Of a stretch of 64,000 bases of DNA, positions 10,082 through 58,293 are shown piece after piece (position 1 is the first letter of the stretch; each line of letters opens with the position of its first letter). Origin of the DNA: Bryobacterales bacterium (GTDB lineage: Bacteria; Acidobacteriota; Terriglobia; Bryobacterales; Bryobacteraceae); assembly GCA_020847975.1 (NCBI GenBank), contig JADLBD010000267.1, positions 1-64,000 of the forward strand. Direction: 5' to 3'. The notes below the pieces were generated by a model. It worked only from the letters and a program-made list of their open reading frames with translations. It was not told where the DNA came from and ran no database searches. The position numbers and the translations under genes were made by a program.

Positions 10082-10126
10082 CCCACTACTCTAACTCGCC
10101 CGGGTCATCTCGGCCATAATCTACCC
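10082..10126. promoter_or_regulatory. Divergent, apparently leaderless promoters
   Basis: The 45 bases between two divergent genes hold a minus-strand TAGAGT (10088-10093), 6 bases before GTG 10081, and a plus-strand CATAAT (10115-10120), 6 bases before ATG 10127. Neither start has a Shine-Dalgarno. If these are -10 elements, both mRNAs begin at or next to the start codon. The -35 boxes are weak. Confidence 0.4.
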
Positions 10127-12226
10127 ATGGATGGTCGTGTACTTCGGAGTCTGATGCTGCTGGCCGCAATCGCGGCGGTTGCCCCCGCGCAACCGCCGCC
10201 CGGCACAGTGGCGCACTATCGCATAATTGGCGTGACGGCCCCGCGCGCCTCGCTGGTCACATCGTTCACTCTCTCGCTCGGGCCGCGCGAGGAAGACCGG
10301 CAATGGGTCTCTCTAGCAGCCACGAAGGAGGACGGCGCCCAGTTCCGCGTTTGGCTGCTGAGCACGGGCGAACCCTCGCGCGCCGGCGCGGTCCGCTATC
10401 TGTTTCAAGAGGGGCGCGACGCCAAGCCCAGGGAATGTCGCAATGCGCTGAACGGCCGCGCCGTGCTTCCTTCCCAAGGCGATTGGGACCTGCTGCCCGC
10501 ACCGGCGCTCAGCTTTCCCCAGGAGGTACACTATCTGGGACATCGCTACAGCCGGGAGTCGCTCGAACAGCAGACTCCTGCGCCGGCGCCCGCGGCGGAC
10601 GTGGTATTGCTCCGGCCCGACCTTCTGATCGGCCCCGCCAGCAACACGAAGCAGAAGGACGAAACGCGCCGCTATGACGGCTCCGACTATGAACTGGTCC
10701 GGCTCACACGCGAGGATTACCGCCGCATGCGCGATGCCGGAATTACCTGCGTCCGCGTGGATGCGGAACAGGCGCCCTGGGCGGACGAACTCGGACTGTA
10801 CTACTGGGGGGCCGGCAATAGCCTCCCCTTCCCGGAAGCGCTCTATCGCAGCCAATACCTCGGACCTGCGCTCTTCCTCGATGAACCGGCGGTGGGGACG
10901 CGGGATCACGCCGTACGGCCGCGTTTCGCCAAGGACGAAGCGTTTCGCAAGTCGATTACGCCGAAGGGAATGTTCGAGGAATTCCGGAAATATTATGACC
11001 ATGCACTACGCGAGAGCGCTGCGCGGTCGCTGATCAAGGGTCTGCGCGCGCGGGCGGATGTGGACTTGGGCGACCTCGATTTTCCGCAAACGAACCTCTA
11101 CACCTGGGAGACGATGGTCAGCACCGCGGCCTATCAGCTTTCGCGCGATGCGCGCGTGCCCAATGCGATGGTCTTCGAGCCGCCCGGCCGCATCGGCACG
11201 CGCCGGACACTGCCTGAAATGGATATGACTTACGGCGTTCAACTGCCGCCCGACGATCCGAAGGCGCTCGCGGACATCATCTTCGGCTTCCTTCGCGGGG
11301 CTGCCCGGCTCACCGGAAAGCAGTGGGGCACGAGCATCTATGGAGCTTTCGAGCGCGCGGACGCACCCTGGTGGCTGACGCACGCATACGACTTGGGCGC
11401 GACACGATTCTTCTTCTGGGACAACTATCAACTCGCCTGCGTCCCTTTCGGCGAGGTGCTCATGCTCTCCCGTCATTTAAGCGAATACGCGCGCGCTCAT
11501 CCCCGTCCCGATCCCGGCCGGTTGCGGACCGCCGCGCAGACAGCCATCCTGCTGCCGCCGGGCTACGATCTGGGGCATGTGCAAACCGGCAAGGGAAGCA
11601 TGTGGGGTGTTGGGGAACTGAACCTGGAGAGGAAGAATGCCTACGGCATTTCGTATCGCACGGTGATGACGAACTTCTTCACGGAGATCGAACGCTGTTT
11701 CAAACTCGGCGTTCCTTACGACCTGTTGTGGGATCTGTCCGGGGCGCCAGCCACTGGTTACCGGGAGATTGTCCGGATTCGAGAGGATGGGAAAGTGGAG
11801 GTGCGAGAGGCTGAGAGAGTGACTGTTCTCGACCACGCAAGAACCCCACCCAGAATCAGCGGAGCGCCGCCCAAACTGACGCTGACGCTTTCCTCGCACG
11901 CGGCAAACGGCGTAACGGAGGTAACGGCGCGCGCCAGGGTCGAAGAAACCTCGGCGGCTGTCTACTACACCTACGGTGCGGACAATGAAGGTATCTATCG
12001 CAACGCCATGGTGGCCTGGGAATTGTATGGCCCTGAGGAGCAGGATCAGATCGTGCTGGTGCCCGATCACCTCAAGCCAAACGTAGTGATGGACAAGTTA
12101 GGCGGAACAGTGGAAGTCCGGTTTTCTCTGCGCCGACCGGGCACGTACCGGCTGCGGGCGTCGACGGTGGATGTGGCGGGGCGCACAACCGTCGAGTGGA
12201 TGCCCATCACGATAGGAGGACGGTGA
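10127..12226 (+). CDS. Large secreted protein, probable TIM-barrel glycosidase-like
   Basis: 699 residues with a signal peptide (LMLLAAIAAVAPAQ). The N-terminal 190 residues look like a beta-sandwich. The middle has features of a (beta/alpha)8 enzyme: DAGITCVRVDAEQAPW, LGPALFLDEPAVG, TSIYGAFERADAPWWLTHAYDLGATRFFFWD. The end is Ig-like. No family signature is certain. The Glu/Asp pairs (LDEPA, YGAFE) could be catalytic, but this is a guess. The next gene starts immediately after the stop and encodes another barrel-like secreted protein, so the two probably work together on one polymer. Confidence 0.6.
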   Translation: MDGRVLRSLMLLAAIAAVAPAQPPPGTVAHYRIIGVTAPRASLVTSFTLSLGPREEDRQWVSLAATKEDGAQFRVWLLSTGEPSRAGAVRYLFQEGRDAKPRECRNALNGRAVLPSQGDWDLLPAPALSFPQEVHYLGHRYSRESLEQQTPAPAPAADVVLLRPDLLIGPASNTKQKDETRRYDGSDYELVRLTREDYRRMRDAGITCVRVDAEQAPWADELGLYYWGAGNSLPFPEALYRSQYLGPALFLDEPAVGTRDHAVRPRFAKDEAFRKSITPKGMFEEFRKYYDHALRESAARSLIKGLRARADVDLGDLDFPQTNLYTWETMVSTAAYQLSRDARVPNAMVFEPPGRIGTRRTLPEMDMTYGVQLPPDDPKALADIIFGFLRGAARLTGKQWGTSIYGAFERADAPWWLTHAYDLGATRFFFWDNYQLACVPFGEVLMLSRHLSEYARAHPRPDPGRLRTAAQTAILLPPGYDLGHVQTGKGSMWGVGELNLERKNAYGISYRTVMTNFFTEIERCFKLGVPYDLLWDLSGAPATGYREIVRIREDGKVEVREAERVTVLDHARTPPRISGAPPKLTLTLSSHAANGVTEVTARARVEETSAAVYYTYGADNEGIYRNAMVAWELYGPEEQDQIVLVPDHLKPNVVMDKLGGTVEVRFSLRRPGTYRLRASTVDVAGRTTVEWMPITIGGR

Positions 12227-13396
12227 GTGAAACGCAGGAGTTTTCTTGGAAGCGCGCTCGCGGCCTTCGCCGCGGGAGAACCTGGGCGGGTCGATAGCGA
12301 CGGAATGCTGCTGCTCAACGGCAAGCGCACTTTTGTCCTCGGGCTATATCAACTTCCTCAGGGCACGGCCCCCTGGCGGCGGGCGGCGGATGCCGGATTC
12401 CATGTGGTGCACGCGGATCCGAAGCCGGACCAGTTGGCTCAGGCGCGCGCTCACAACATGCATGTCTGGCTCACCGTAGGCTCGAAGCGCAAACCGGAGG
12501 ACGAGGCGCGCATCCGGAAATTCATCGGGCAGTGGAAACAGCATCCGGAAGTTCTGTTTTGGGAGACCGAGGATGAGCCTTCGTTCGTATGGAAAAAGCC
12601 GAGGGAAGTTCGCATCCCGTCTGAGATCATTCGCGAAACCTACCGCCTTGTCAAATCGGCGGACCCGGCGCGGCCGCTCTATCTGAACCACTCGCCTACC
12701 AACCTCGTGAGCACGCTGGCGCGCTACAACCCCGGCGGCGATTTCCTCGCGACAGATATATACCCCGTCATTCCGCGCGGAATCCGCGAACAGTACGCGC
12801 TGTGGCCGGACGGGCAGCAGGGTGACCTGCTCAACTCCACCATCTCGCAAGTGGGCGCCTATACGGACAAGATGCGCCAGGTGGCGGGTCCGGCGCGCGG
12901 CGTATGGATGGTGCTGCAAGGGTTCGCCTGGGAGATGTTGCGGGAAAAAGACCGCGATCCGAGGATGATCCGCTATCCAACGATGGCGGAGACACGCTTC
13001 ATGGCTTTGCAGGCGATTGTCCACGGCGCAACCGGGCTGTTGTGGTGGGGCCTTTACCGCACGCCGCCGGAATCGGGATTGTGGGACAGCATCGCAGCCG
13101 TTGCCCGGGAGTTGAAGGGGCTTTCCGAAGAGTTGGCGGCCCGGCCGTTACGGGCCGGCGTCCAGATCGAGTATCACGACACCGGACACAGCCTCGATCG
13201 CGGGATCGAGTGGGTGCTCAAGCCATCAGCCAAGGGCAGCGTGCTCATCGCGGTCAACGCGGACAAGAATCCCGTGGAGGCCACCATGCGGCTGGGCGCG
13301 TGGCAGCGGAGGGAGTTGTTCGAGCCCTTCGGGGCGAGAGTGTTCCATCCGCAGGCATCCATCGCGCGGGGGCAAACCACCCATCCGGTACACTAG
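12227..13396 (+). CDS. Tat-exported TIM-barrel glycoside-hydrolase-like protein
   Basis: 389 residues from GTG 12227, supported by AGGAGG seven to twelve bases upstream and by direct abutment to the previous stop. The N-terminus MKRRSFLGSALAAFAAG has a twin-arginine motif. The barrel shows LNGKRTFVLGLYQLP, FWETEDEPSF, LNHSPTNLV, FLATDIYPV, GVWMVLQGFAWE and HGATGLLWWGLY, as in clan GH-A-like cellulase/beta-galactosidase-like hypothetical proteins of Acidobacteria and Planctomycetes. EDEPS is a plausible acid/base. The exact activity is unknown. A final strand domain (GSVLIAVNADKNPVEATMRL) resembles the C-terminal sheet of such hydrolases. Confidence 0.65.
   Translation: MKRRSFLGSALAAFAAGEPGRVDSDGMLLLNGKRTFVLGLYQLPQGTAPWRRAADAGFHVVHADPKPDQLAQARAHNMHVWLTVGSKRKPEDEARIRKFIGQWKQHPEVLFWETEDEPSFVWKKPREVRIPSEIIRETYRLVKSADPARPLYLNHSPTNLVSTLARYNPGGDFLATDIYPVIPRGIREQYALWPDGQQGDLLNSTISQVGAYTDKMRQVAGPARGVWMVLQGFAWEMLREKDRDPRMIRYPTMAETRFMALQAIVHGATGLLWWGLYRTPPESGLWDSIAAVARELKGLSEELAARPLRAGVQIEYHDTGHSLDRGIEWVLKPSAKGSVLIAVNADKNPVEATMRLGAWQRRELFEPFGARVFHPQASIARGQTTHPVH
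13389..13394 (+). promoter_or_regulatory. -10-like TACACT before arginase gene
   Basis: TACACT lies 8 bases before ATG 13403, which has no Shine-Dalgarno. It overlaps the stop codon of the preceding gene. It fits the leaderless pattern seen at several other genes here. No good -35 is visible. Confidence 0.35.
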
Positions 13397-13402
13397 AACC
13401 TG

Positions 13403-14317
13403 ATGCGCTGCTCGCAAATCGCTGTCATTGGCGCTCCCCTCGATCTCGGCGCCGGACGCCGCGGCGTGGACATGGGTCCTTCCGCCATCCGTGTGGCTAA
13501 TCTCGGCACGCGCATCGCCGCTCTCGGCTACGAGGTGGAAGACTTGGGCAACGTGGAAGTGAAGCAGGCCGAAAGCATTCCCACCGGCGAATCCACGGCC
13601 CGTTATCTCGATGAGATTGCTTTTACCTGCAAACGCCTCGCGGCCCTGGTGGAAAAGACGCTCGCCTCGGGGAAAATGCCTCTTGTGCTCGGCGGCGATC
13701 ATTCCGTTGCCATCGGTACCGTTTCCGGCCTGTCACGTCATTACCGGAAGCAGAAAAAATCCATCGGGCTGCTCTGGTTGGATGCACACGCCGATATGAA
13801 CACTCCCGAAACCTCCCCCAGCGGGAATGTGCATGGCATGCCGCTGGCCTGCATCACCGGCTACGGTCCACACGAACTGACGCGGATCTACGGCTATGAG
13901 CCGAAGGTGGATGCGCGAAACGTCGTGCTGGTGGGCATTCGCGACGTGGACCAACTCGAGAAGCCGCACGTCAAGCAATCCGGCGTGCACGCGTTCACCA
14001 TGCGCGACATCGATGAACGCGGGCTGCGCGCCGTGATGAAAGAAGCGATCGAGATCGCGTGCGCCGGCACCGAGGGCTTTCACCTTTCCTTCGACATGGA
14101 TGCCGTCGACCCGCAAATCGCGCCCGGCGTCGGCACTCCCGTGCGCGGCGGCATTACGTACCGCGAAGCTCATCTCGCCATGGAGATCGTCAATGACTCC
14201 GGCCGCATGCTCTCCATGGAAATGGTGGAAGTGAACCCGGTCATCGATGAGCGCAACCGCACCGCCGAGCTTGCGGTGGAATTGACCATGTCCGCCATGG
14301 GCAAGAGGATCCTGTGA
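13403..14317 (+). CDS. rocF: Arginase
   Basis: 304 residues, full length for bacterial arginase. It hydrolyses L-arginine to ornithine and urea using a two-manganese site. All metal ligands are visible: GGDHSVAIGT (His), WLDAHADMNTP (Asp-His-Asp) and SFDMDAVDPQIAPG (Asp-x-Asp). The substrate-loop NVHGMPLA is also present, which distinguishes arginase from agmatinase in this superfamily. It is the first of six genes joined by overlaps. Its GTGA junction with ddl means translation of the two is probably coupled, a pairing with no evident biochemical logic. Confidence 0.95.
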   Translation: MRCSQIAVIGAPLDLGAGRRGVDMGPSAIRVANLGTRIAALGYEVEDLGNVEVKQAESIPTGESTARYLDEIAFTCKRLAALVEKTLASGKMPLVLGGDHSVAIGTVSGLSRHYRKQKKSIGLLWLDAHADMNTPETSPSGNVHGMPLACITGYGPHELTRIYGYEPKVDARNVVLVGIRDVDQLEKPHVKQSGVHAFTMRDIDERGLRAVMKEAIEIACAGTEGFHLSFDMDAVDPQIAPGVGTPVRGGITYREAHLAMEIVNDSGRMLSMEMVEVNPVIDERNRTAELAVELTMSAMGKRIL

Positions 14318-15291
14318 AACTACGCGTGGCTGTCATCTACGGCGGGCGAAGCGGCGAGCATGAGATTTCGCTGCGCTCCGCCAAGTCCATCATCGAGGCG
14401 CTCGACCCGGATCGCTATCACGTCCTGCATTACCTCATCTCAAAGGAAGGCCGCTGGTCTCCGAAACCCATTCAGCCCGAACCGGGCGCGAATGCTCACA
14501 TCGATGTGGCGTTTCCCATCCTCCATGGCACGTTCGGCGAGGACGGCACAGTTCAGGGGCTGCTGGAACTCGCCGGGCTTCCCTACGTGGGCGCGGGCGT
14601 GTTCGCCTCCGCTGCCGCCATGGATAAAGACGCCATGAAACGCATATGCCGCGAGCGTGGTCTTCCCGTGGTGGAGTGCGTTGTGATGTCCTCCAACCGG
14701 CTCGACCCCGCGCTGCCTCCCCAACATTTTCCCTTTCCCATGTTCGTGAAGCCGGCCAATCTCGGATCGAGCGTCGGCATCTCGAAGGCCTCCAATCCTG
14801 AGGAACTCGCCGCCGCTCTTCAACTGGCCGCGCAGTTTGACCGCAAGGTGATTGTCGAACGCGCCATCATGGGGAAAGAACTCGAGTGCGCGGTCCTTGG
14901 CAACGAGGAACCGGAAGCCTCTCTGCCCTGCGAGATCCTGCCGTCCAGGGAATTCTACGATTACGAGGATAAGTACCTGCTCGATAAAGCGGAATGCATC
15001 ATCCCCGCTGACCTTTCCGCTTCGGACACGGCCGAACTGCGGCGAATCGCCGTCGAAGCCTACAAGGCCGTGCAGTGCGAAGGCATGGCGCGCGTGGATT
15101 TCCTCTACGAAGCGGCCACCGGCAAACTCTATCTGAACGAGATCAACACTATCCCCGGCTTCACCTCCATCAGCATGTTCCCCAAGATGTGGGAGCACAG
15201 CGGGCTGCCCATGCCCAAACTGGTGGACAAACTGATCGAACTCGCCTTGGCCCGGCATGAGGCTCGCAAGAACCTGCGGTATTCCCTGTGA
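14314..15291 (+). CDS. ddl: D-alanine--D-alanine ligase
   Basis: 325 residues. It makes D-Ala-D-Ala for peptidoglycan in the cytoplasm with ATP. The start GTG 14314 overlaps the arginase TGA. Motifs are N-terminal VIYGGRSGEHEISLRSAKS, then HGTFGEDGTVQGLLELAGLPYVG, ATP-grasp block FVKPANLGSSVGISKA, and C-terminal LNEINTIPGFTSISMFPKMW. The end of the protein overlaps the S41 protease gene by 4 bases. The arrangement couples a wall-precursor enzyme to a secreted processing protease. Confidence 0.95.
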   Translation: MKLRVAVIYGGRSGEHEISLRSAKSIIEALDPDRYHVLHYLISKEGRWSPKPIQPEPGANAHIDVAFPILHGTFGEDGTVQGLLELAGLPYVGAGVFASAAAMDKDAMKRICRERGLPVVECVVMSSNRLDPALPPQHFPFPMFVKPANLGSSVGISKASNPEELAAALQLAAQFDRKVIVERAIMGKELECAVLGNEEPEASLPCEILPSREFYDYEDKYLLDKAECIIPADLSASDTAELRRIAVEAYKAVQCEGMARVDFLYEAATGKLYLNEINTIPGFTSISMFPKMWEHSGLPMPKLVDKLIELALARHEARKNLRYSL

Positions 15292-24233: not shown

Positions 24234-24246
24234 GACAATAAGATCC

Positions 24247-25182
24247 ATGCGAGTCGTCCTGGAAATCTTGGATGGGCCTCTGCTGGGCCGCACCGTGGAG
24301 TTGAATCCAGGCCAGTCGGTGTCCGTCGGCCGGACGGCGAAGTCGCAACTGATGCTCCCGCACGATAGTTTCCTTTCCGGCATTCATTTCCAGATTGAAT
24401 GCACCGAAGCCGGCGCCATGGTGAAGGACTGCAACAGCAGCAACGGGACTTGGGTGAACGGCAACAAGATCCTGAACCAGCCGCTTACGGATGGCGACCA
24501 GGTGGCCGCTGGACAAACTCGCTTCAAGATTCATCTGGCGGAGGCGCCGCAAACTCCCGAAGAGCACCGCCGCACCTCCACCGTCCTGTTCGCCGCTCCC
24601 AAGGTCGAAGAGTTGCAGGCTTTCGCAGCACAGCAGAAAGTGGAGGTCTCCACCCTCACACCCGTGCAACAGGCCGCCGTCAAATACCTGCAACTGCGTC
24701 CCGCCCCGCTCTACGCCATCCTCAACTCCAACATCGACGAACGCGTCCCTCACCTGCTGATCACCTCGGGCGAAGTCTACCAGTTCCTTTCCGAGGGCCT
24801 GACCCTCGGCGACCAGATGCCCCCAGGCGTCTACCTCGTCTACCTGCCGGCCACATCACCCCTGCTCCCCAGACTGGTGGCCGAGGGATGGGGTCAGCAT
24901 TGGACGCTCTTCTTCACCTGCAACCACCCCTTCGGCGAGGTAAGACAGCATCTGCGGCAGTTCCTCATCATGCAGACGGAGGAAGGCAAGCGATTTTTCT
25001 TCCGCTACTACGATCCGCGCCTGCTGCAATATCTGCTCCCCTCCTGCTCGCCGCGCGAGATCACACAACTGTTCGGCCCCATCCAAAGCTTCCTTATGGA
25101 GGATGCAAGCGATCCGGCGAATCTGCTGGAAATGATGGTTTCCCCGCAGGGTTTGATGGGTAAAGTGGTCAAACTGGGGTAG
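24247..25182 (+). CDS. FHA domain fused to DUF4123 (type VI effector-adaptor-like)
   Basis: 311 residues, no signal peptide. The N-terminal 100 residues are an FHA phosphothreonine-binding domain (VSVGRTAKSQLMLPHDSFLSG, then CNSSNGTWVNGNKI). The C-terminal 170 residues match DUF4123: LYAILNSNIDERVPHLL, LVAEGWGQHWTLFF, LRQFLIMQTEEGKRFFFRYY and PRLLQYLLPSCSPREI. DUF4123 proteins (Tap/TEC) load effectors on VgrG spikes of type VI secretion systems. No VgrG, PAAR, Hcp or effector gene is in this window, so its partners must be elsewhere or its role differs. A weak GACAAT lies 7 bases before ATG. Confidence 0.82.
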   Translation: MRVVLEILDGPLLGRTVELNPGQSVSVGRTAKSQLMLPHDSFLSGIHFQIECTEAGAMVKDCNSSNGTWVNGNKILNQPLTDGDQVAAGQTRFKIHLAEAPQTPEEHRRTSTVLFAAPKVEELQAFAAQQKVEVSTLTPVQQAAVKYLQLRPAPLYAILNSNIDERVPHLLITSGEVYQFLSEGLTLGDQMPPGVYLVYLPATSPLLPRLVAEGWGQHWTLFFTCNHPFGEVRQHLRQFLIMQTEEGKRFFFRYYDPRLLQYLLPSCSPREITQLFGPIQSFLMEDASDPANLLEMMVSPQGLMGKVVKLG

Positions 25183-26039: not shown

Positions 26040-26068
26040 ATTATAGGTTTGCGATTTTTTGGCGTCAA
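26040..26068 (-). promoter_or_regulatory. Sigma-70 promoter placed for a leaderless mRNA
   Basis: On the minus strand TTGACG (26063-26068) and TATAAT (26040-26045) are separated by exactly 17 bases, a near-consensus housekeeping promoter. Only 8 bases separate TATAAT from ATG 26031 and there is no Shine-Dalgarno, so transcription should begin at the start codon itself. Confidence 0.7.
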
Positions 26069-32367: not shown

Positions 32368-33566
32368 TTCACAAGGATAGCAGCCGGACCGCGGGTCAGA
32401 AGGCACCAGATGGCCCATCCCATCACCGGAAATGCAGCCGCCAGCGCGAACGCCGCCGGGTAGGCGTGCGCGTCGAACAGACGCCCGAACCACGGCATCG
32501 TCAGCGCCACCAAAGCCGACCACGACCCCGCCCCCAATCCCGCCAGAAATCCGGCATGGTCGCTCGAATACGCGCTGGTGGCATACGCCACGCTGATGAT
32601 GACAAATCCTCCGGCAATGAACATCGCAAAAAACAACAATCCCATCAACGCCGCCACGGATTTCGCGTATGCGCCCAAGGCGAGCGGAAGACTCAACATC
32701 ATCAGCAGGAAGTACACCCGTCGAAAGGCGCGCATGGAGCCTTCCGCGCGCAAGCCGTGACGGTCCGCCTGCCAGCCCCAGAAGAAGTAGCCCACCTCCC
32801 AACCAAGCGGCGGAATCCACAACAACTTCCCGATGTCCGCCTGCGACAAACCCATCGGCGAGCCGAGGTACAAGGCCGCGTTGTAGAGCACAAAGGCAAG
32901 AGGCAGTCCTCCGAGCGCATAGGTAGCCATGAAGCTCCACAGCTTGGAATCAAGCAAACTCGGATGCGCCAGACCCGTATCGCTAATCGCCTTGCGCCGG
33001 CGGATGTCTTCCCGGCGGCTGACGATACTCCACCATCCGAGCCACAATACTCCCACAAACCCCGTAAACCAGAACGCGCCCCGCCAGCCCCACCACAACG
33101 CGATAGGCGTCACGATGATCGGCGTAATCACCGCGCCCAGCGACCCACCGCCATACGCCACGGCAATCCCGCGCGAGCGGAGCCGCCCGTCGAGCGTCTG
33201 CACCACCGCGCGCAAACCTCCGGGAAACGTGGCCCCCTCCCCGAATCCCAGCGCCGCCCGGGCGATCGCGAAACTCCAGAAGCCCGCGGCGAAGGCATGT
33301 GACATGGAGGCCAGTGTCCAGAACCCTACCGCCGCCGCCATTCCTCCCGCGATTCCGATCCGATCCAGTACGCGCCCCCAAACCGGATTCCCGATCATGT
33401 AGGCTACCGAGAACGCCGAGATGATCCAGCCGTACTGCTCGGCGCTCAGGTGCGTTTCCTTTAGAATCGTCGGAGCCAGCAGCGCCAGCGTATTGCGGTC
33501 AATGTAGCTGATCAGCGAGACCAGCGTCATCGACAATGCGGGAATCCATACGGAGAGTCGTTTCAC
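32364..33566 (-). CDS. MFS transporter, anion:cation symporter type
   Basis: 400 residues with 12 membrane helices. It shows family motifs IDRNTLALLAPTI in helix I, GRVLDRIG in the first loop and ALGFGEGATFPGGLRAV in helix IV. This is the layout of the ACS branch (hexuronate, glucarate, phthalate carriers). A sugar-acid substrate would fit the dehydratase and fucosidases in the window, but this is inference. The start is GTG 33564-33566 with no Shine-Dalgarno. Its stop overlaps the thioredoxin-like gene. Confidence 0.85.
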   Translation of the reverse strand: MKRLSVWIPALSMTLVSLISYIDRNTLALLAPTILKETHLSAEQYGWIISAFSVAYMIGNPVWGRVLDRIGIAGGMAAAVGFWTLASMSHAFAAGFWSFAIARAALGFGEGATFPGGLRAVVQTLDGRLRSRGIAVAYGGGSLGAVITPIIVTPIALWWGWRGAFWFTGFVGVLWLGWWSIVSRREDIRRRKAISDTGLAHPSLLDSKLWSFMATYALGGLPLAFVLYNAALYLGSPMGLSQADIGKLLWIPPLGWEVGYFFWGWQADRHGLRAEGSMRAFRRVYFLLMMLSLPLALGAYAKSVAALMGLLFFAMFIAGGFVIISVAYATSAYSSDHAGFLAGLGAGSWSALVALTMPWFGRLFDAHAYPAAFALAAAFPVMGWAIWCLLTRGPAAILVK

Positions 33567-40063: not shown

Positions 40064-40069
40064 TATCAT
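40064..40069 (+). promoter_or_regulatory. -10-like TATCAT, leaderless position
   Basis: TATCAT lies 8 bases before ATG 40078, which has no Shine-Dalgarno. The 39785-40077 gap between the divergent genes shows no other gene or repeat. Confidence 0.4.
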
Positions 40070-42628: not shown

Positions 42629-44833
42629 CTACGGCCGTATCTCGAGCGTCGATGCAGCCTTCACCTTCCCGAACTCCATCGCGAAACTCCTCCCCGCGTA
42701 ATAGGCGTTCCACTGGTCACGGAAATGAGAGGAGAACGGCTGGCCCGATTGTCCAATCGTGATATTGTGCAGCGAGTGCTCCCAATCGCTGAGGTCGGCG
42801 ATGAATCGCATCGACGGACCCAGCCGGCGCGTCGTCTGCTTCACGGTGGTGGATGATCCATCCATCGGCATGGGACCAATGCGGAAGTACCCACCCACGT
42901 AAGGAAGGCGCCCCAGCACGGGATGCTGGAGCGCGAACTCCGTATACCGCCCATAGTCCCACTTGCCCGGATCCTTGCCGAAGCTGCGCCGTCCCTCTTC
43001 CATTGCCGAGTCGAAGCATTTCAGCAACAGACCGTCATAATCGTCAAACCAGTCCGTGGGGCGCTCGCGGAGCAGCTTTTCAATTACCACTGGAGCCATT
43101 TGGCTCTCGTACGCCGCGCCCTCCCCAGGCGCCGCGCGGTCTCCCACGGCTTTCCGCAAATGCTGGTAGATCAGCGTCACAATCAGCGGAGCAGCCAGCC
43201 CGGAGCGCATCTGCCCGTTCCAGTTCTTCAGCAACTCCGCCGGCGCCGCCAGTCCCTGGTTGCCGCGCCCGCGCCTGTCCCACGCCTTGTACACCTCCTG
43301 TGCCAGGAAATGGCTGAAGGCGGAATATACATCCGTTTCCACGGAAAGCATCTCCTGGGGCTTCCACCCAGTGTGGGAACGAAGGCGCGCCTGGATCTGG
43401 TTGGCCCGGTACGGCGCGGCGAAGTTCCCGTTCACGCGGAATGGATAATTCGCCGGAAACGGGTTCTGGTTGGCCGTCACCAACATTCCCGAAGGCGGAT
43501 TGTACGCCGCGGGAAGTTGATCAAAGGGGATCGTGCCCTCCCATTCGGTCTCCCCCGCGCTGCCGTCCGTAGGTACGTCTCCCTGAAACGTCTTTCGCAC
43601 CGGCAACTTGCCCGCCGCGTGGTAGCCGATGTTGCCGTCCACATCGGCATACACGAAATTCGAACCTGGTCCCGAGATACGGGCCAGCGCCTGCGTAAAC
43701 TCCTGCCAGTTCCGCGCCCGGTTCAGGGCCAGGAACGGAAACCGGAAGCCATCCTTGTCCTCCGCCAGCCAGTGCAGCGAGAAGGTTTCGGCGCCGGAGG
43801 TGACAAAAATCGGGCCATGCCGGGTCACCCAGGTCACCATCTCCATCGGGGACCTCCCCTTGATGCGGATCGTCTCCCGTTCCGGACGCGCCTGCTCCAC
43901 TTGGCCCCGGAACATGTACCGCCCGCTTTGCGGATCGAATTTCTCCAGGTACAAGTCCTGCACGTCGAACTGCAGATTTGTGATCCCCCAGGCGATCCGC
44001 TGATTGTGACCAATGATGACGCAGGGGACGCCGGGAAGCGTAAAACCCATCACGTCCAGTTCCGGGGCCTTCAGGTGAATGGAATACCAGGGGCTGGGGA
44101 ACGCCCACTCGAGATGGGTATCGTTGGCCAGAATGGGCTTTCCCGTCGCCGTCCATTTCCCCGAAACGGCCCATGCGTTCGAGCCGAACTGCGCCTCCGC
44201 TCCCGATCGCACCGGCAGTAGAAACGATACTTTTCCCGCGTCGCCCTTGGAAAGCAGCTTGCGTTTCAGAATCTCATCCTTCCAACTGTTGGTGAGGCTG
44301 CGGAACATCTGCATCCCCGCCAGCATCGAATCCACCACCGACCACGGCTTGGGATCGTATCCGAGCAGGGTAAACTCCACTGGAAGGTTTCCGCGGTGCG
44401 TCTCGAGGAAGTAATTCACCCCCCTGGCATAGGCTGCGAACTGTGCTCGTTCTTCCGCGTCCAGATTGGCATAGTGCGCCTCAGCCGTCCGCCGCATGAG
44501 CAGGCGGCGCGATTCCTGGTCCGATTCGAGAGCGGCAGGCCCGACAATCTCCGAAAGCTCCCCAGCCGCCAACCGCCGCAGCGCGTCCATCTGCCATAGC
44601 CGGTCCTGGGCGTGCGCGTAGCCCTCGAGAAAGAGCACATCCTCGACGCTCGCCGCCGTGACATGCGGAACTCCAAGCGCATCCCGGACAATCCTCGCCG
44701 GTCCGCTCACCGGCATCTGCAACCCGCCGGAAACCTGCGGCAGGGGCCGCCACATATACCAATACGCCCACGCCGCCGCCATCACAAGCAGAGCCAGAAT
44801 CAACAAATTGACCAGACGAAGAATGCGGTTCAC
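42629..44833 (-). CDS. Penicillin acylase family (Ntn hydrolase)
   Basis: 734 residues from GTG 44831-44833. This start gives an N-terminal membrane anchor (LVNLLILALLVMAAAWAYWY), and TACAAT lies nine bases before it; the longer frame begins with TTG. It shows the A-chain pattern (ARIVRDALGVPHVTAASVED, EGYAHAQDRLWQMD) and the self-cleavage site with nucleophile Ser in FGSNAWAVSG. Next come DTHLEWAFPSPWYSIHLKAP and NQRIAWGITNLQFDVQDLY. It is an amidase acting on acyl-amides such as penicillins or acyl-homoserine lactones; the real substrate is unknown. It stays membrane-attached facing the periplasm. Confidence 0.9.
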   Translation of the reverse strand: MNRILRLVNLLILALLVMAAAWAYWYMWRPLPQVSGGLQMPVSGPARIVRDALGVPHVTAASVEDVLFLEGYAHAQDRLWQMDALRRLAAGELSEIVGPAALESDQESRRLLMRRTAEAHYANLDAEERAQFAAYARGVNYFLETHRGNLPVEFTLLGYDPKPWSVVDSMLAGMQMFRSLTNSWKDEILKRKLLSKGDAGKVSFLLPVRSGAEAQFGSNAWAVSGKWTATGKPILANDTHLEWAFPSPWYSIHLKAPELDVMGFTLPGVPCVIIGHNQRIAWGITNLQFDVQDLYLEKFDPQSGRYMFRGQVEQARPERETIRIKGRSPMEMVTWVTRHGPIFVTSGAETFSLHWLAEDKDGFRFPFLALNRARNWQEFTQALARISGPGSNFVYADVDGNIGYHAAGKLPVRKTFQGDVPTDGSAGETEWEGTIPFDQLPAAYNPPSGMLVTANQNPFPANYPFRVNGNFAAPYRANQIQARLRSHTGWKPQEMLSVETDVYSAFSHFLAQEVYKAWDRRGRGNQGLAAPAELLKNWNGQMRSGLAAPLIVTLIYQHLRKAVGDRAAPGEGAAYESQMAPVVIEKLLRERPTDWFDDYDGLLLKCFDSAMEEGRRSFGKDPGKWDYGRYTEFALQHPVLGRLPYVGGYFRIGPMPMDGSSTTVKQTTRRLGPSMRFIADLSDWEHSLHNITIGQSGQPFSSHFRDQWNAYYAGRSFAMEFGKVKAASTLEIRP

Positions 44834-44842: not shown

Positions 44843-44848
44843 ATTGTA
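44843..44848 (-). promoter_or_regulatory. -10-like TACAAT, leaderless position
   Basis: On the minus strand TACAAT precedes GTG 44833 by nine bases, with no Shine-Dalgarno between. It also helps decide the penicillin acylase start. Confidence 0.4.
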
Positions 44849-46318: not shown

Positions 46319-46327
46319 CGTCTCCGC

Positions 46328-47299: not shown

Positions 47300-47361
47300 C
47301 AGCTTCTTCAACGAAATCACGCGAGTTCTCCCGGTCCTTATCGGCCCGAAAGGCGGTTTCT

Positions 47362-48144
47362 CTATAAACGGTTCAGTCCTTCCGTCAACTCTACGTACGC
47401 TCCCCACGGATCCGTGAAAAACGCAATCGAAATCCCCAGCTGCGGCACCTTCCGGTAGGGCACGTCAAACTTCACGCCCTTTGCCTCCAACTGCTTCACG
47501 AACCCTTCCAGCCCCTTCACCTCGAACCCGATGTGGTCCAAAGCCCGGCCCTTTGTCGGAACCGTCGGCTTCTCTGACGGAGAAAATGTGAGATTCACTC
47601 CCGGCAGGTCCGCCGCATCGAACTTCAATCGCTTCCCCGGTTTGGCGCCCAGCATCTTCGCATACCACGCCTGCGTTTCGAGCACCGCCGTGTCAAACCA
47701 GTGAATGTGGTGATTCACGATAGGCCGCGTCATCGATTTGTCCTCGCTCAGTTCCACCTTCACCGAAGCCGGCGACATGATAAACGCCTGTCGTGTCTCC
47801 TTGTTGAAACTCACCTCCCGGTAACCCATCGCCTTCGCCTTGGCGCGGAACGCGTCCAGGTCATTCACCTTGAACCCGACGTGATTGATGGCGGAACCTT
47901 CCGAACCTCCGGAAACAGCCGCCACCTTACGGACCATCACCAGCCCATCGGGGAACTTGTAGACATCCATTGTGCCGAGTTTCACAGTGGAAGCTCCGAG
48001 AAAGTCCACCCAAAACCGGCGCGAGGCTTCGGGGTCCGTGGTGTTCAGGTGAAGGTGTCCCATCGACACGCCCATGCTGTTCGGAGCGGGCAGTTGGGCG
48101 GCGAGACAAAGGGGAGCAAACAAGAGAGCCAGTGTGCAACGCAT
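47362..48144 (-). CDS. Secreted two-domain VOC (glyoxalase-fold) protein
   Basis: 260 residues from ATG 48144 with a signal peptide (CTLALLFAPLCLAAQ). Two VOC modules follow, one from MGHLHLNTTDPEASRRFWVD and one from HHIHWFDTAVLETQAWYAKM. Potential metal ligands are His in the first strand of each half (GHLHLN, HHIHWF) and Glu in VKVELSED and AYVELTEG. VOC proteins include glyoxalase I, dioxygenases and resistance proteins; a secreted two-domain form in Acidobacteria has no known substrate. Start has TATACC nine bases upstream. Confidence 0.82.
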   Translation of the reverse strand: MRCTLALLFAPLCLAAQLPAPNSMGVSMGHLHLNTTDPEASRRFWVDFLGASTVKLGTMDVYKFPDGLVMVRKVAAVSGGSEGSAINHVGFKVNDLDAFRAKAKAMGYREVSFNKETRQAFIMSPASVKVELSEDKSMTRPIVNHHIHWFDTAVLETQAWYAKMLGAKPGKRLKFDAADLPGVNLTFSPSEKPTVPTKGRALDHIGFEVKGLEGFVKQLEAKGVKFDVPYRKVPQLGISIAFFTDPWGAYVELTEGLNRL

Positions 48145-48163
48145 CAAGCCGATGGTATAACGA

Positions 48164-49132: not shown

Positions 49133-49178
49133 GGGTCCTTCTTTCCCGTATCCTATCGGATCTGGATGGGGTGCTGTC

Positions 49179-49685: not shown

Positions 49686-49691
49686 GCGAGC

Positions 49692-51452: not shown

Positions 51453-51535
51453 GAAAACTCCTATACTTTAACGATTCAGTACGCGCTCTTTCTATCATGC
51501 CCGCTTTGTCAACGTCAACTCTTCCCTCGCTCGCT

Positions 51536-51541
51536 TACAAT
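51536..51541 (+). promoter_or_regulatory. -10-like TACAAT, leaderless position
   Basis: TACAAT stands eight bases before ATG 51550, with no Shine-Dalgarno. TTGTCA lies farther up at 51506-51511, but at 24 bases it is too distant to be a normal -35. Confidence 0.4.
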
Positions 51542-51549
51542 AGTTCCCA

Positions 51550-53262
51550 ATGTTCCGAATCTCCTTGGCCCCCGTCGACTACCTCATCCTCTCCACCTAC
51601 CTCTGCTTCGTCGTCGGCATCGGCTTCGCCCTCAAGCGCTACATGCGCACCTCCACTGACTTCTTCCTTTCCGGCCGGTCCATCCCCGCCTGGATCACCG
51701 GACTCGCCTTCCTCTCCGCCAACCTCGGCGCCCAGGAAGTCATGGGTATGGCCGCCTCCGGCGCCAAGTACGGCATCGCCACCAGCCACTTCTATTGGGT
51801 GGGAGCCGTCCCGGCCATGGTCTTCGTCGGCATTTTCATGATGCCCTTCTACTACGGCTCGCGTGCCCGCTCCGTGCCGGAGTACCTGAAACTCCGCTTC
51901 GATGAGAAAACCCGCGGCTTCAACGCCATCACCTTCGCCGCCATGACCGTGTTCTCCTCCGGCATCTCGCTTTACGCCATGGGTATCCTGCTCACCGCCC
52001 TGCTGGGCTGGGATTTCAGCGCCTCCATCTGGCTTTCCGCTTTCATCGTTCTCTGCTATATCTTCCTCGGCGGACTTACCTCCGCCATTTACAATGAGGT
52101 GCTCCAGTTCTTCCTGATCGTCGCCGGCTTCCTCCCGCTGGTCTTTCTCGGGCTCAAAGATGTGGGCGGCTGGGACGAACTCGTGATACGACTGCAAGCC
52201 GTATCCGTTTCCCGCGGCTTCGCCCCGGGAGCCTTCACCTCCGCATGGCGCCATCTCGGCAACACCGCCGATAACCCGCTCGGCGTCGAATGGTTCAGCA
52301 TGGTGATGGGGCTCGGATTTGTCCTCTCCTTCGGCTACTGGTGCACGGATTTCCTCGTCGTCCAGCGCGCCATGGCCGCCAAATCCATGGCCGCCGCCCG
52401 CCGTACGCCCCTGATCGCGGCATTCCCGAAGATGCTCTTCCCCTTTCTCGTCATCCTGCCCGGCATGATCGCCATCGCCCTCACCGGCTCGCAGGCTTCC
52501 AACGGATTCCACCTGCCCCCCAAACCCGACGGCTCGCTCAACTACGACATGACCATCCCCCTCATGCTCGGCCACTACTTCCCGCCCGGCATGCTCGGCC
52601 TCGGTCTCACCGCCCTCCTCGCCTCCTTCATGTCCGGAATGGCCGGCAACGTCACCGCCTTCAATACGGTCTGGACCTACGACATCTACCAGTCCTACAT
52701 TCGCAAGAACGCCTCCGACGCCCACTACCTCTGGATGGGCCGCATGACCACCATCTTCGGCATCGTCGCCTCCGTCCTCGCCGCCTACCTCGCCACCCGC
52801 TTCAACAACATCATGGACTTCCTCCAGTTGGTGTTCGCCTTCGTCAACGCTCCCCTCTTCGCCACATTCCTGCTCGGCATGTTCTCCAAGCGCACCACCG
52901 GCCACGGCGCCTTCACAGGCTTACTGTGCGGCACCCTCGCCGCCGCCCTCCACCACGGCCTCACCCTGCCCAAAGGCTCGATCGCCGGCATCAAAGGTGG
53001 CTGGCTCACGGTTCTGCATGGCTATCCGTCCGAGATGGCGCAGAACTTCTGGACCGCTACCTGGGCGTGGGTAGCCTGCTTCGTCATCACCATCGCCGTC
53101 AGCCGCCTCAGCGCCCCGAAGGCGGAAGGCGAACTGAAGGGCCTCGTCTATTCCCTCACGCCGAAACCGGAGGCCGAAAACGTCCCCTGGTTCGAACGCC
53201 CCGGACCGCTGGGTGTAGTGATCCTGGGGTTAGTGGCGATTCTCAATATCATCTTCTGGTAG
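51550..53262 (+). CDS. Sodium:solute symporter (SSF family)
   Basis: 570 residues with about 13-14 membrane helices. SSF signatures are FFLSGRSIPAWITGLAFLSA, YKLR-like YLKLRFDEKTRGFNA and GLGLTALLASFMSGMAGNVT, with the residues that line the Na2 site (AxxASxxS pattern). It couples sodium entry to uptake of a sugar or organic acid. The neighbouring fucosidase, divergently placed, makes L-fucose a reasonable but unproven substrate. Its 3' end overlaps the convergent SIR2-like gene by 14 bases. Confidence 0.9.
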   Translation: MFRISLAPVDYLILSTYLCFVVGIGFALKRYMRTSTDFFLSGRSIPAWITGLAFLSANLGAQEVMGMAASGAKYGIATSHFYWVGAVPAMVFVGIFMMPFYYGSRARSVPEYLKLRFDEKTRGFNAITFAAMTVFSSGISLYAMGILLTALLGWDFSASIWLSAFIVLCYIFLGGLTSAIYNEVLQFFLIVAGFLPLVFLGLKDVGGWDELVIRLQAVSVSRGFAPGAFTSAWRHLGNTADNPLGVEWFSMVMGLGFVLSFGYWCTDFLVVQRAMAAKSMAAARRTPLIAAFPKMLFPFLVILPGMIAIALTGSQASNGFHLPPKPDGSLNYDMTIPLMLGHYFPPGMLGLGLTALLASFMSGMAGNVTAFNTVWTYDIYQSYIRKNASDAHYLWMGRMTTIFGIVASVLAAYLATRFNNIMDFLQLVFAFVNAPLFATFLLGMFSKRTTGHGAFTGLLCGTLAAALHHGLTLPKGSIAGIKGGWLTVLHGYPSEMAQNFWTATWAWVACFVITIAVSRLSAPKAEGELKGLVYSLTPKPEAENVPWFERPGPLGVVILGLVAILNIIFW

Positions 53263-54247
53263 TGTTGCACTGTGCCGGCTGCACTGGCCCCATGAAGCAA
53301 ATCGACTCGGCGGCGGGGAATACCTCCCCGATATTCCGGCAATCGCCCGATCGGCTGTAGAACTCCACTCGTAAGGGAAGATCGGCTTTGCGCCTGCTCA
53401 TGCCTTCCCTGAAGAAAAACCTGCCGTACATGTCTTCCTTCGGAAAGCTGTACCCGAGAACGACAACCCGTTCAGCCGTCTTGATGGCATTGGCGAGTGT
53501 CTTCCATTGTTCGCGAACAACGTCAAATACTTGCCTCGCCCCATACCGCTCCGCCACTTCGAATATCAACTCGCTCTTCAGGGGGACCGCCCCTAGGAGG
53601 AGTGGGTCTTCTTCACCCGCCAGAACGCTTCCACAGTCCAATGAGGTCATTGCCGGCTCCCCATCGACTAGGCGGTGCCAAGCGTGCTTCAGTTTAATGA
53701 TGTCCCACGAAGCCGAGCCGTGAGGCTTTGCGAACCTTATGAACCCTGAAGGTTCAACTGGATCGAGATCCTTGCCGTGTCGCAAGCGCACACTTGACAC
53801 ATTGCGCACCACGCGTTCGATAACTGTGTCGTAGTTGAAGGAAATCAGCGTATCCCCGGCCTGCATCTGTTTTGCAATCGTCACCGCGGTGCATGGGTCG
53901 TCTCGGTCTATGCTTTCTGCAAGTACATCACACGATCGACCATAGAATCGCAAGAGCGCGCTCTTCAATTCCTGAACTACCCTGCCACGAGGGTTACCCC
54001 AGGGTATCTGAAAATCATGTGGGAACTTCGCATGAAGGTCGATGCAGGTCCACAGTTCTTCGAGCCCGACTTTGTTTACGGTCCGACTAAGATGATTAAT
54101 AACTTTTTCAATCTCCTCATACTCCACGCTCCAACCTGGAATCGTCATAAGCGCAGTAACAAAGTCTTCGGAAATTGGTGGGGGAGCTTTGTGCTCCTGC
54201 AATGTACCCAGAGTAAAGCCAGCCCCAACGATAAATACCGTGGCCAT
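53249..54247 (-). CDS. SIR2-like NAD-hydrolase-fold protein, probable defence gene
   Basis: 332 residues. SIR2_2-type motifs are seen: N-terminal VFIVGAGFTLGT (NAD-binding GAG), TLISFNYDTVIERVV (the SFNYD block typical of prokaryotic SIR2-like proteins), FAKPHGSASW (catalytic His) and VVVLGYSFPKED. No second domain follows, so it is a stand-alone form. Such domains deplete NAD in anti-phage systems (Thoeris ThsA, DSR, SIR2-HerA). No HerA, TIR or Argonaute partner is next to it. Base composition is lower than its neighbours: by my count the lines at 53821 and 54061 have 29 and 24 G+C out of 60. The start has TAGAAT eight bases before it. Confidence 0.8.
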   Translation of the reverse strand: MATVFIVGAGFTLGTLQEHKAPPPISEDFVTALMTIPGWSVEYEEIEKVINHLSRTVNKVGLEELWTCIDLHAKFPHDFQIPWGNPRGRVVQELKSALLRFYGRSCDVLAESIDRDDPCTAVTIAKQMQAGDTLISFNYDTVIERVVRNVSSVRLRHGKDLDPVEPSGFIRFAKPHGSASWDIIKLKHAWHRLVDGEPAMTSLDCGSVLAGEEDPLLLGAVPLKSELIFEVAERYGARQVFDVVREQWKTLANAIKTAERVVVLGYSFPKEDMYGRFFFREGMSRRKADLPLRVEFYSRSGDCRNIGEVFPAAESICFMGPVQPAQCNTTRR

Positions 54248-54255
54248 CGCAACTT

Positions 54256-54261
54256 ATTCTA
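54256..54261 (-). promoter_or_regulatory. -10-like TAGAAT, leaderless position
   Basis: On the minus strand TAGAAT lies eight bases before ATG 54247 of the SIR2-like gene, and no Shine-Dalgarno is present. Confidence 0.4.
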
Positions 54262-54277
54262 ATTCATCAGCGGCCAC

Positions 54278-55366: not shown

Positions 55367-58281
55367 CACCGGTACCGTACCCAGATCGGGCTCGACCACG
55401 CCAACTCACCATTCTTCTGCTCCACGCGCACGTAATACCAGTGCTCGCCCGCGCCGGCCGAATTGTCCGCATACTCGAAGTCCACGTCGCGCTTGCCCGG
55501 CGACACCTTGTAGATATACGCCGCATCGCGAATCAGGTGCACCGCCTCCACCGCGTCCGTACCCCGCACCTTCACCCGGATCTTCTGCGGCGCCGCGGCC
55601 GTGAAATCGTCGCCCATGAAGTGGCCGCCCATCCAGAATTCGAGCACGATATTGTCCGTGGCGCCGTAGGTGTGCCGCTTGCCGATCGCCTCGAAGATCG
55701 CCTGCCGGCTCATGGCCGGGGTATACACCATCGCGTAGGAGATGTGCGTTGAGTAATGATCGGAACTCGCGATCACGCCCAGACGGTATCCTTTTTTCCA
55801 GGCGTTCCACACCAGGCCCGCCTCCTGATACCCGCCCGGCATCTTCCTTTCCTGCCCGTCGTGAACGCCCCGCGGCACGTTCCGCGCCTCGGAACTGTAC
55901 CGGGCCCCCTGATAGATCTCCACCACCGGCTCGAGTTTGGGGTCGCTCTTGTCCTTCCAGTCCGTTCCCATGCTATTCGTCGCCGAGGTGTGCGGAATCG
56001 AAAGTCCGCCGTCCTTGCGCAGTTCTTCGTAGAGGAGGTAGGTGTCGTTGCGGATCCCCCCGCCGAAACTCGCGCTATTGAACGTCAACAGTTCACCGTC
56101 CGGGCTGTCCGGCAGCATGAACTTCGGATCGATCCGCTGGAAGAACGGGATCACCCGGTAATTCCGCTGCGTATGGATGATGTTGCGGTGCCCGAACGGG
56201 TTCCCCAGGTTGCGCTCGTATGCGTAGAGCGGCACGAAGCGCTGCGGGAAATGGTACATATCCGTCATCTTCTGCGTGATGAAATTCCAGTAGTCCGTGC
56301 CGCCGCCCTGATGATCGGTGGACGCCCCGAAATCCATTGCCGCGGCGTCGATCATGTAGCGGTAAAACTCCGGGAGCGTGCCGTCGTCGACCCCCCCAAC
56401 GTCCTGCGAGAGTTCCGTGTGCCGGTGCAGATCGCCGCGCACGATTCGCAATTGCGTTCCGCTCACGGTGACCCGGTGCGCCCGAATCGCCGCCACATCC
56501 CGGGCCTCGGCCGTCGCCGGCGCGGATGCAGGCGGCCTCGCCCGAGCCTCCAGCACCGGCGCCGCGCCCGCTGCCGGCAGCGGCAGCGAGCCCGCGATCA
56601 CCCTTCCCGCTCTTGGCCGGCTCGCGAAATCATACTCGCGGCTCTCCGACGGCCAGAACGCCCACAGCCTTCCCTTCGCCGCCGCCAGGCTCATGCGCGT
56701 GCTTTTCCGAGTCCAGCTATTGGGCAGCAGCACCGGGTCCGTCCACCGCGCGCCGTCAAGACGCGTCAGGTACGTCTCCCAATAGGTGCTCGGGCGGTAG
56801 CCCAGGCGGCTGTAACGCCGCTTGAGAGCGAGCCATAGGTTGCCGTTGGGGTCCACGGCCAGCAAGGGATCGCTGAGGCTCGAACTGCCGCGCTCCAGCG
56901 TATCGTCGAACCGTACCGCGGGGGAGGCCTTCCACTCTTGCCCGTCCAGACATACCACTTCGATATGGCGCGGTCCGCCCAGCGGCTTTCCCGGAGCGTT
57001 TTTCCCGAGCGCCCAACCCAGGTCCTTGCCCCAATTCTCCGCATCCGTCTCCCACGCCACCCACGGCCGGTTGCCGGCATCGACGGCCACTGTCGCGTAC
57101 GCCTCGAACCGCGGCGAAGCAGCCAGGGCCACTTCTCCCGAAAACCCGGTCCCAGGCGTGTAACTGCGCGCATATACGTCGTAGCTCGTGTTGTAGCGGT
57201 CCCAGGCGATCCAGACTTTCCCATCGCTTCCGCTCGCTACCGCCGGGAGCCAGTCATCGTGCTGCGAATCTGTTACCTTCAGAATCTCCGACCACTGGCC
57301 GGCTTTCAAATAGCGCATGCGGATCTGCGACACGCGCCCTGCCAACGCCTGCCAAACCACGTAGATCGTTCCGTCAGGCGCTCGCGAGATAGCCGGTTCG
57401 ATATCCGGCGTTGTCTCCGCACTCACCTTCACCTTCGAACCCCATTCGTTGTCCAGCCACGGCATCGCCCAGATGTCCCAATTGCCGTCCGTCTGCTCCG
57501 ACCAGATCAGCCATGCTTTCCCGCTTGAATCCGTCGCCGCTTGCGGACGCCACAGATCCTCCCACGCATGCCCCACATTGATCAGCCGGGTCCACTGGCC
57601 GTTCTGATAGCGCCGGAAGTTCAACTCCTCGCGCCGGTCGTGATAGCTCGACCAGACCGCGAAGAGCGCGCCGTCCGCGCTCGCGCCCAGGGCGGGGAAA
57701 TCGTGCTGCCGCAGCATCGTGCCCGAAAGATCCGTCTCCGCCGGCACGCGTCGCACTTCCATCCTCCCGCCCAGGCACTTCGTCACGCCCAGCGCCATCG
57801 GCGCAAATTCGCAGGCGCCTTGCGTTGTCTGCACGCTCAGACGCGTCGCTTCCGTGCCGCGCCCCCGGATCAACAGCCCTTTGGGCAACACCATCCTGCT
57901 TCTTGCCGCGGCGCCCTCCACGGGAGAACTCGAGAGAATCTGTTCCACCTTGGTCCGCGCCACCCAACCACCTTGCGGCAATACCCGATCCGGCAGTTCG
58001 AAGCGATATCCTTTCAGGTTCCAGATATCGCCCGCGGAGATTTGCAGACTGCCGTCCCATGCCGCGGGCTCGCCGTCGCCCACCCCCATCAGCACCAGTA
58101 CTTCCCACAACTCTTCCTCCGGCGTGCCGCCGGGTTCGGACGCCCACGCGCCTCCATACGCCAGGTCCTGCGCCGCGCGCTGCGCTTCATTGGTGGGAGC
58201 CGGCTGTTGGGCGCTCATCCAAACCGCGCCCGCGGCGGCGATTGCCAGCGCCAGAACGGTTGCCATCCGGGGCTTTGTCAT
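55366..58281 (-). CDS. Secreted beta-propeller protein with C-terminal PHP-type metal-hydrolase (DUF3604)
   Basis: 971 residues with a signal peptide (VLALAIAAAGAVWMSAQQ). Residues about 190-590 contain repeated sheet blades with Asp-rich turns (FAVWSSYHDRREELNFRRYQ, AWLIWSEQTDGNWDIWAMP, IYVVWQALAGRVSQIRMRYL, VWIAWDRYNTSYDVYAR). From about 630 there is a PHP/DUF3604 domain: GDLHRHTELSQDVGGVDDGT (metal His/His), DFGASTDHQGGG, and later GVIASSDHYSTH. The domain is predicted to be a metal phosphoesterase or hydrolase. Its TGA overlaps the dehydratase ATG by 4 bases, so the two are translated together. The start has TAGAAT six bases upstream. Confidence 0.8.
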   Translation of the reverse strand: MTKPRMATVLALAIAAAGAVWMSAQQPAPTNEAQRAAQDLAYGGAWASEPGGTPEEELWEVLVLMGVGDGEPAAWDGSLQISAGDIWNLKGYRFELPDRVLPQGGWVARTKVEQILSSSPVEGAAARSRMVLPKGLLIRGRGTEATRLSVQTTQGACEFAPMALGVTKCLGGRMEVRRVPAETDLSGTMLRQHDFPALGASADGALFAVWSSYHDRREELNFRRYQNGQWTRLINVGHAWEDLWRPQAATDSSGKAWLIWSEQTDGNWDIWAMPWLDNEWGSKVKVSAETTPDIEPAISRAPDGTIYVVWQALAGRVSQIRMRYLKAGQWSEILKVTDSQHDDWLPAVASGSDGKVWIAWDRYNTSYDVYARSYTPGTGFSGEVALAASPRFEAYATVAVDAGNRPWVAWETDAENWGKDLGWALGKNAPGKPLGGPRHIEVVCLDGQEWKASPAVRFDDTLERGSSSLSDPLLAVDPNGNLWLALKRRYSRLGYRPSTYWETYLTRLDGARWTDPVLLPNSWTRKSTRMSLAAAKGRLWAFWPSESREYDFASRPRAGRVIAGSLPLPAAGAAPVLEARARPPASAPATAEARDVAAIRAHRVTVSGTQLRIVRGDLHRHTELSQDVGGVDDGTLPEFYRYMIDAAAMDFGASTDHQGGGTDYWNFITQKMTDMYHFPQRFVPLYAYERNLGNPFGHRNIIHTQRNYRVIPFFQRIDPKFMLPDSPDGELLTFNSASFGGGIRNDTYLLYEELRKDGGLSIPHTSATNSMGTDWKDKSDPKLEPVVEIYQGARYSSEARNVPRGVHDGQERKMPGGYQEAGLVWNAWKKGYRLGVIASSDHYSTHISYAMVYTPAMSRQAIFEAIGKRHTYGATDNIVLEFWMGGHFMGDDFTAAAPQKIRVKVRGTDAVEAVHLIRDAAYIYKVSPGKRDVDFEYADNSAGAGEHWYYVRVEQKNGELAWSSPIWVRYR

Positions 58282-58287
58282 GTGGCC

Positions 58288-58293
58288 ATTCTA
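58288..58293 (-). promoter_or_regulatory. -10-like TAGAAT, leaderless position
   Basis: On the minus strand TAGAAT lies six bases before ATG 58281. No Shine-Dalgarno is present between them. The -35 region is not convincing. Confidence 0.4.

Follow-up and report, generated by a model that had tools for sequence, protein, structure and literature searches.

Hexamers Upstream of Start Codons in the Window

The DNA considered here is the first 64,000 nt, forward strand, of contig JADLBD010000267.1 in the draft genome of a Bryobacterales bacterium (Acidobacteriota, Bryobacteraceae; GenBank assembly GCA_020847975.1), referred to below as the window. A number of its genes have a hexamer of the −10 promoter type (TANNNT) immediately before the start codon. 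A sequence-only reading of the window had listed 12 such starts, eight with strict hexamers and four with looser ones, and had taken them to indicate widespread leaderless transcription. All 12 starts and hexamers were recovered when the sequence was read again, in the same places and with the same gaps. Gaps (6–9 nt) are counted here from the end of the hexamer to the start codon, and distances (12–15 nt) from the first base of TANNNT to the start codon.

The strict sites are found on both strands. Forward-strand examples are TACACT (13389..13394), 8 nt before the ATG at 13403 of an arginase family gene (Pfam); TATCAT (40064..40069), 8 nt before the ATG at 40078 of an ORF (open reading frame) of 653 amino acids with no Pfam family; and TACAAT (51536..51541), 8 nt before the ATG at 51550 of a Na+:solute symporter family gene (Pfam). 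On the reverse strand, TAGAGT (10088..10093) is 6 nt from the GTG at 10081 of a PQQ dehydrogenase-like gene (Pfam PQQ), TATAAT (26040..26045) is 8 nt from the ATG at 26031 of an ORF of 281 amino acids with no Pfam family, and TACAAT (44843..44848) is 9 nt from the GTG at 44833 of a penicillin amidase family gene (Pfam). TAGAAT occurs twice on this strand, at 54256..54261 (gap 8 to the ATG at 54247) and 58288..58293 (gap 6 to the ATG at 58281). The TATAAT of 26031 is also preceded, across a 17-bp spacer, by a −35-like TTGACG on the same strand (26063..26068), as had been noticed before.

Among the looser sites, CATAAT (10115..10120, forward strand; gap 6 to the ATG at 10127) is −10-like and lies within the 45 bp that this gene shares with the divergent start at 10081. 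The other two forward-strand cases are GACAAT (24234..24239), 7 nt before the ATG at 24247 of an FHA/DUF4123 protein gene, and a weak TATTAC (2473..2478), 8 nt before the ATG at 2487 of a glutaminase A-like gene. For the glyoxalase family gene (Pfam) starting with the ATG at 48144 on the reverse strand, the loose TATACC described at gap 9 is indeed there, but a strict TACCAT (48152..48157, gap 7), which had not been listed, overlaps it.

Genes were also called with a method blind to upstream letters, which used only a codon-hexamer score and start-codon weights. It agrees with seven of the 12 starts (2487, 13403, 24247, 26031, 40078, 44833, and 51550) and places the other five elsewhere (10081, 10127, 48144, 54247, and 58281, the last moved to the next ATG, at 58266); at 10081, 10127, and 48144, start and hexamer are nonetheless conserved in a genome of the same genus (see below). 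Of the 40 genes called in the window, six have TANNNT at distance 12–15, compared to about 1.0 expected (Poisson p = 0.0007). A confounding factor is that three of the eight strict hexamers contain an in-frame stop codon (TAG at 10081 and 58281, TAA at 26031). Since such a stop can itself help to define the ORF, controls were frame-matched, with expected counts taken in the same reading phases further upstream, and hexamers free of in-frame stops were recounted separately.

Enrichment Beyond the Window

The test set beforehand was positional enrichment outside the window, and this was found both in 719 kb sampled from the 8.67-Mb genome and in other genomes of the same genus. The draft assembly consists of 302 contigs (completeness 89.4%, contamination 7.0%), with the window falling within a contig (C267) of 69,496 bases; 554 genes were called in the sample, 552 of them with 90 upstream bases. 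TANNNT at distance 12–15 precedes 50 of these 552 genes, compared to 14.2 expected (Poisson p ~1e-13). Distances of 12, 13, 14, and 15 nt account for 23, 5, 13, and 9 genes respectively, the largest peak being at the in-frame distance of 12. An earlier profile from 271 genes, superseded by this set, had the same shape from less data. The frame-matched rate (14.2/552 = 2.6%) also indicates that the chance of about 2% per gene originally assumed was about right. With stop-free hexamers the count is 39, compared to 11.6 expected. The mirror and rotations of the motif are near background (observed/expected: A...TA 17/13.6, T...TA 17/11.1, and TT...A 20/18.1).

The same method was applied to 200 kb each of Thermus pTT27 as a positive control, where there were 24 cases vs. 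3.3 expected (stop-free 10 vs. 2.5), and of E. coli, where there was no peak (4 vs. 9.1; stop-free 4 vs. 6.9). Each of the other acidobacterial genomes was represented by a sample of about 200 kb, and small differences between them should therefore not be pressed. The two of the same genus gave 20 vs. 3.0 (G042; stop-free 15 vs. 2.4) and 12 vs. 4.1 (G044; stop-free 8 vs. 3.3).

The share of genes involved was estimated as the excess over control offsets when alternative starts with a coding score close to the best one were allowed, at three tolerance settings. It was 9.9–10.4% in this genome, 9.0–12.6% in G044, and 14.5–16.1% in G042; 7.0–8.5% in G173, which is of the same class; and 3.2–4.1% and 3.1–7.0% in G049 and G005. 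Thermus gave 16.3–16.5%, and E. coli a value below zero. At called starts, the genus (82/820) has a higher proportion than the two other sampled family members (14/293; two-sided Fisher p 0.005).

Shine-Dalgarno Use, Gene Orientation, and Promoter-Like Features

Genes with the hexamer largely lack a Shine-Dalgarno (SD) sequence, which was found in 3 of the 50 TANNNT genes and in 163 of the 502 others (one-sided Fisher p 2e-5). They are also more often in divergent orientation (23/50 vs. 137/502; one-sided Fisher p 0.006). In the genome sample as a whole, 0.30 of the 552 genes have an SD 4-mer at SD spacing, which exceeds the background of 0.13 (for E. coli, 0.50 vs. 0.08), so this is not SD loss of the Bacteroidetes type, marked by missing SD enrichment or an altered anti-SD. 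A 16S gene was not found in the draft genome itself; the 16S 3′ ends of G042 and G044 have an intact CCTCCTTTCT (CCTCC intact), and with two such normal ends in the genus the SD route is probably intact as well. The coexistence of two initiation modes, proposed from the GGAGG sites of other genes in the window, is supported on both counts. With SD sequences in only 0.30 of genes, there are many that lack both a clear SD and a TA box.

Promoter-like features were compared in a pool of 137 TA starts from nine genomes. Position 5 of the hexamer is A or C in 0.83 of them (0.61 of control hexamers), and a G is found two bases before the hexamer in 0.55 (0.38 of controls). TTG at a 17-bp spacer occurs in 9 of the 137, compared to ~1.3% at other spacers (p 9e-5). 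As marks of a sigma-70-type promoter, this TTG and the G of an extended −10 are both weak signals.

Conservation in Relatives

In the stretches of G044 examined, eight of the 12 sites have an orthologue (2487, 26031, 54247, and 58281 do not). The hexamer is identical and at the same distance in seven of these, including all five strict ones (10081, 13403, 40078, 44833, and 51550) and those of 10127 and 48144, the last in its TACCAT form; the eighth, the GACAAT of 24247, is changed to GAGAAT. Further upstream, the two genomes have diverged in sequence at 13403, 40078, 44833, 48144, and 51550. Over 37 orthologue pairs, with 73 candidate starts that are conserved, both members have TANNNT at distance 12–15 in 10 cases, compared to 30 over the 59 other distances. 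Of the sites without a counterpart in G044, 26031 is an orphan, with no close relative among 20 genomes and only weak matches (at most 34% identity) in four of them.

The penicillin amidase gene was followed through 100 loci (20 + 80), three of which were dropped because the alignment started after residue 40; near-duplicates were removed. Among the 45 deduplicated loci with at least 44% identity, 31 have a box at distance 12–15 from a candidate start, where control offsets give 5.4. The 49 loci of lower identity include 6 with the box, against 5.1 by the same control. Before deduplication, an SD 4-mer was found at the candidate start in 5/47 of the closer loci and 25/50 of the distant ones. 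In several of the exceptions (L201, L203, L239, L243, L245, and L265), TANNNT lies some 23–24 nt from an in-frame ATG; judged by eye, these may form a series from leaderless to short-leader starts.

Some details of two other genes may be added. The arginase orthologue in G042 has TACACT at gap 9 plus an SD-like AAGGA. In the window the arginase hexamer (13389–13403 region) shares bases with the stop codon of the gene before it on the same strand, and by eye many arginase orthologues in the family seem to lie close behind an upstream reading frame, with no evident SD. The symporter orthologue in G042 (L092) has TACAAT at gap 7. The one in G044 (G044:C15:74574-75770) matches in two pieces with the middle missing, perhaps because the gene has changed or because of an assembly error.

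Divergent Gene Pairs

The start codons at 10081 and 10127 are 45 bp apart, each with its own hexamer. It would be wrong to say that the pair is simply kept at this spacing in G044: on its contig C17 the start region is tandemly duplicated, with the orthologue starts at 14591 and 14863 (coordinates of the joined stretch), ~270 bp apart. Each copy keeps the 45-bp spacing. The hexamer facing an intact gene is unchanged in each (TAGAGT, CATAAT), and a single change is found in either of the two that face away. This pattern would fit selection acting on the −10 elements, but it is a single case.

When the acidobacterial data were pooled, the box was found at 11/32 divergent starts 20–60 bp apart, 8/46 at 60–100 bp, and 42/398 at 100 bp or more. 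The difference between the first and last of these has a p of 0.0006, or 0.005 (9/30) if a pair from this genome (C40, 22 bp, perhaps not real genes) is left out. Boxes on both sides are found in 4 of the 16 pairs at 20–60 bp: G123 has two of them, and G042 and this genome (C40) have one each. The pair 10081/10127 does not enter into these numbers, since the caller placed its starts elsewhere. Counting only stop-free hexamers gives 6/32 vs. 31/398 (p 0.046), or 5/28 vs. 31/366 (p 0.10) with G123 excluded as well, and one both-side pair is left. The link to short divergent pairs is thus marginal once stop-bearing hexamers are set aside, and with so few pairs should be taken only as a lead. In the two G123 pairs, both in L176 (26600/26632 and 96915/96944, 31 and 28 bp apart), TANNNT precedes both starts, and three of the four hexamers contain an in-frame stop.

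A Leaderless Interpretation

Most of these hexamers are very probably the −10 elements of housekeeping-type (sigma-70-like) promoters, and the resulting mRNAs would have no leader, or hardly any, and be translated with no SD contact. RNA polymerase starts ~7–9 bases downstream of a −10 hexamer, so that elements placed as they are here would have the transcript begin at or within ~3 bases of the start codon. In leaderless translation the 5′-terminal start codon is recognized by 70S ribosomes or by small subunits loaded with initiator tRNA, and one of these is probably the route followed. Enrichment specific to position and strand, conservation at several genes, SD depletion, and gene orientation agree with one another, and the widespread leaderless transcription first proposed for the window is well supported by them, as far as leaderlessness can be judged from promoter position. 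In this Bryobacteraceae genome ~10% of genes are probably leaderless; the mode would operate beside SD-led genes and the many with neither clear signal.

A closely related possibility is that the −10 elements are real but transcription begins several bases upstream of the start codon, leaving leaders of 4–15 nt with no SD. Short leaders probably do occur in the family, as suggested by three of the penicillin amidase loci with TANNNT 23–24 nt from an in-frame ATG (L201, L239, and L265). By established promoter geometry, however, gaps of 6–9 nt put the usual start at or within ~3 nt of the start codon, and the distance enriched is 12–15; as an account of most of the sites this is unlikely. Slightly less likely again is that the hexamer is a translation signal, an AT-rich, unstructured stretch before the start, and no promoter at all. 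AT is slightly raised near called starts (~0.5 at −10 and −11) and the genes concerned do lack an SD, but only the TANNNT order of these letters is clearly enriched, the distance is narrow, there is a tie to divergent genes, and the inner positions and preceding G are promoter-like. The least probable of the three is that wrong starts, or in-frame stops before ORFs, mimic the peak: the three stop-bearing strict hexamers, the maximum at an in-frame distance, and the stop-bearing share of the G123 and Thermus peaks would all suit it, but the stop-free excess in this genome and G042 and the joint conservation of start and hexamer at several genes make it very improbable.

Several observations do weigh against a leaderless interpretation, or limit its extent. 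Stop-bearing hexamers, mostly at distance 12, supply part of the peak, and excluding them reduces the counts from 50 to 39 in this genome, from 24 to 10 in Thermus, and from 11 to 4 in G123, where with 2.6 expected the excess nearly disappears. With alternative starts allowed, there is little excess in G060 (0.2–1.1%), G123 (0.4–1.9%), or G109 (1.7–2.3%). The leaderless fractions are rough in any case, because of the 71 genes found among 82 annotated in two E. coli stretches, the caller matched the annotated start exactly in only 52. Evidence for a −35 element is weak: TTG at spacer 17 (6.6%) is no more frequent than for hexamers further upstream (6.1%), and the test was weak in this genome alone and little better with nine genomes pooled. 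Nor is a pyrimidine at −1, taken as a mark of transcription beginning at the start codon, clearly commoner in the pooled set (79/137 vs. 0.54 in other genes). Three of the 10 conserved orthologue pairs (31459, 35393, and C220) lie in coding sequence or sequence conserved throughout, and so are not independent footprints. Finally, the box is found in just 4 of 30 arginase loci (control 0.8), which do not show family-wide conservation, and in 6 of 21 symporter loci (control 1.5), the present genome being included in both. Set beside 31/45 for penicillin amidase, these numbers suggest that the leaderless arrangement has long been kept in one gene and is lost or gained faster in others.

The observation is right, and in silico there is good support for its interpretation, but leaderless genes of this kind are already known. 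A survey by Zheng et al. (2011; PMC3160421) defines TANNNT ~12 bp before a start, with no SD, as a leaderless signal, and its Table 2 gives such TA-led genes in all three Acidobacteria genomes surveyed (mean 13.3%, range 9.7–19.4%), so the remark in the sequence-only reading that there is little description for Acidobacteria does not hold for prediction. In the parts of that article drawn on here, motif, distance, and missing SD are the same as in the present case, and this draft genome was not identified among those surveyed; orthologue footprints and stop-free controls are added here. The leaderless genes of Deinococcus-Thermus have the same motif and distance, although Thermus differs in its higher fraction and its sharper peak at distance 12. 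The three Acidobacteria genomes of the earlier survey reportedly include Solibacter usitatus, from the same order. A literature search with leaderless or dRNA-seq (differential RNA sequencing) and phylum names returned no title of a study that maps start sites experimentally in Acidobacteria. Confirmation by 5′-end mapping would back leaderless expression with experimental data in a phylum common in soil, and would improve the annotation of gene starts in it.

More tentatively, leaderlessness may be inherited and under selection at particular genes of the family, kept across the Bryobacteraceae in penicillin amidase and mostly not in the arginase and symporter; and leaderless promoters might, in addition, let divergent genes pack to 20–60 bp, the whole space being taken up by two core promoters placed back to back, as at 10081/10127. 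Both ideas are possible but doubtful. There is a likeness to the bidirectional promoters of E. coli and Salmonella plasmids (PMC12825309, PMC10268837), where core promoter elements packed close together are described as driving divergent transcription; in the arrangement proposed here, unlike those as far as these descriptions go, both transcripts would begin at the start codons of genes 20–60 bp apart. The penicillin amidase, with a start that appears to have been kept leaderless family-wide, would be a gene in which to ask why genes stay leaderless, and is the part most worth an experiment.

Other Features of the Window

One additional hexamer, TATCCT (32374..32379, reverse strand), lies 6 nt from the ATG at 32367; it is doubtful, being inside the end of the upstream gene. 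A tRNA-Leu (taa) gene is found at 1539–1627, and 92 bases here are identical in G044.

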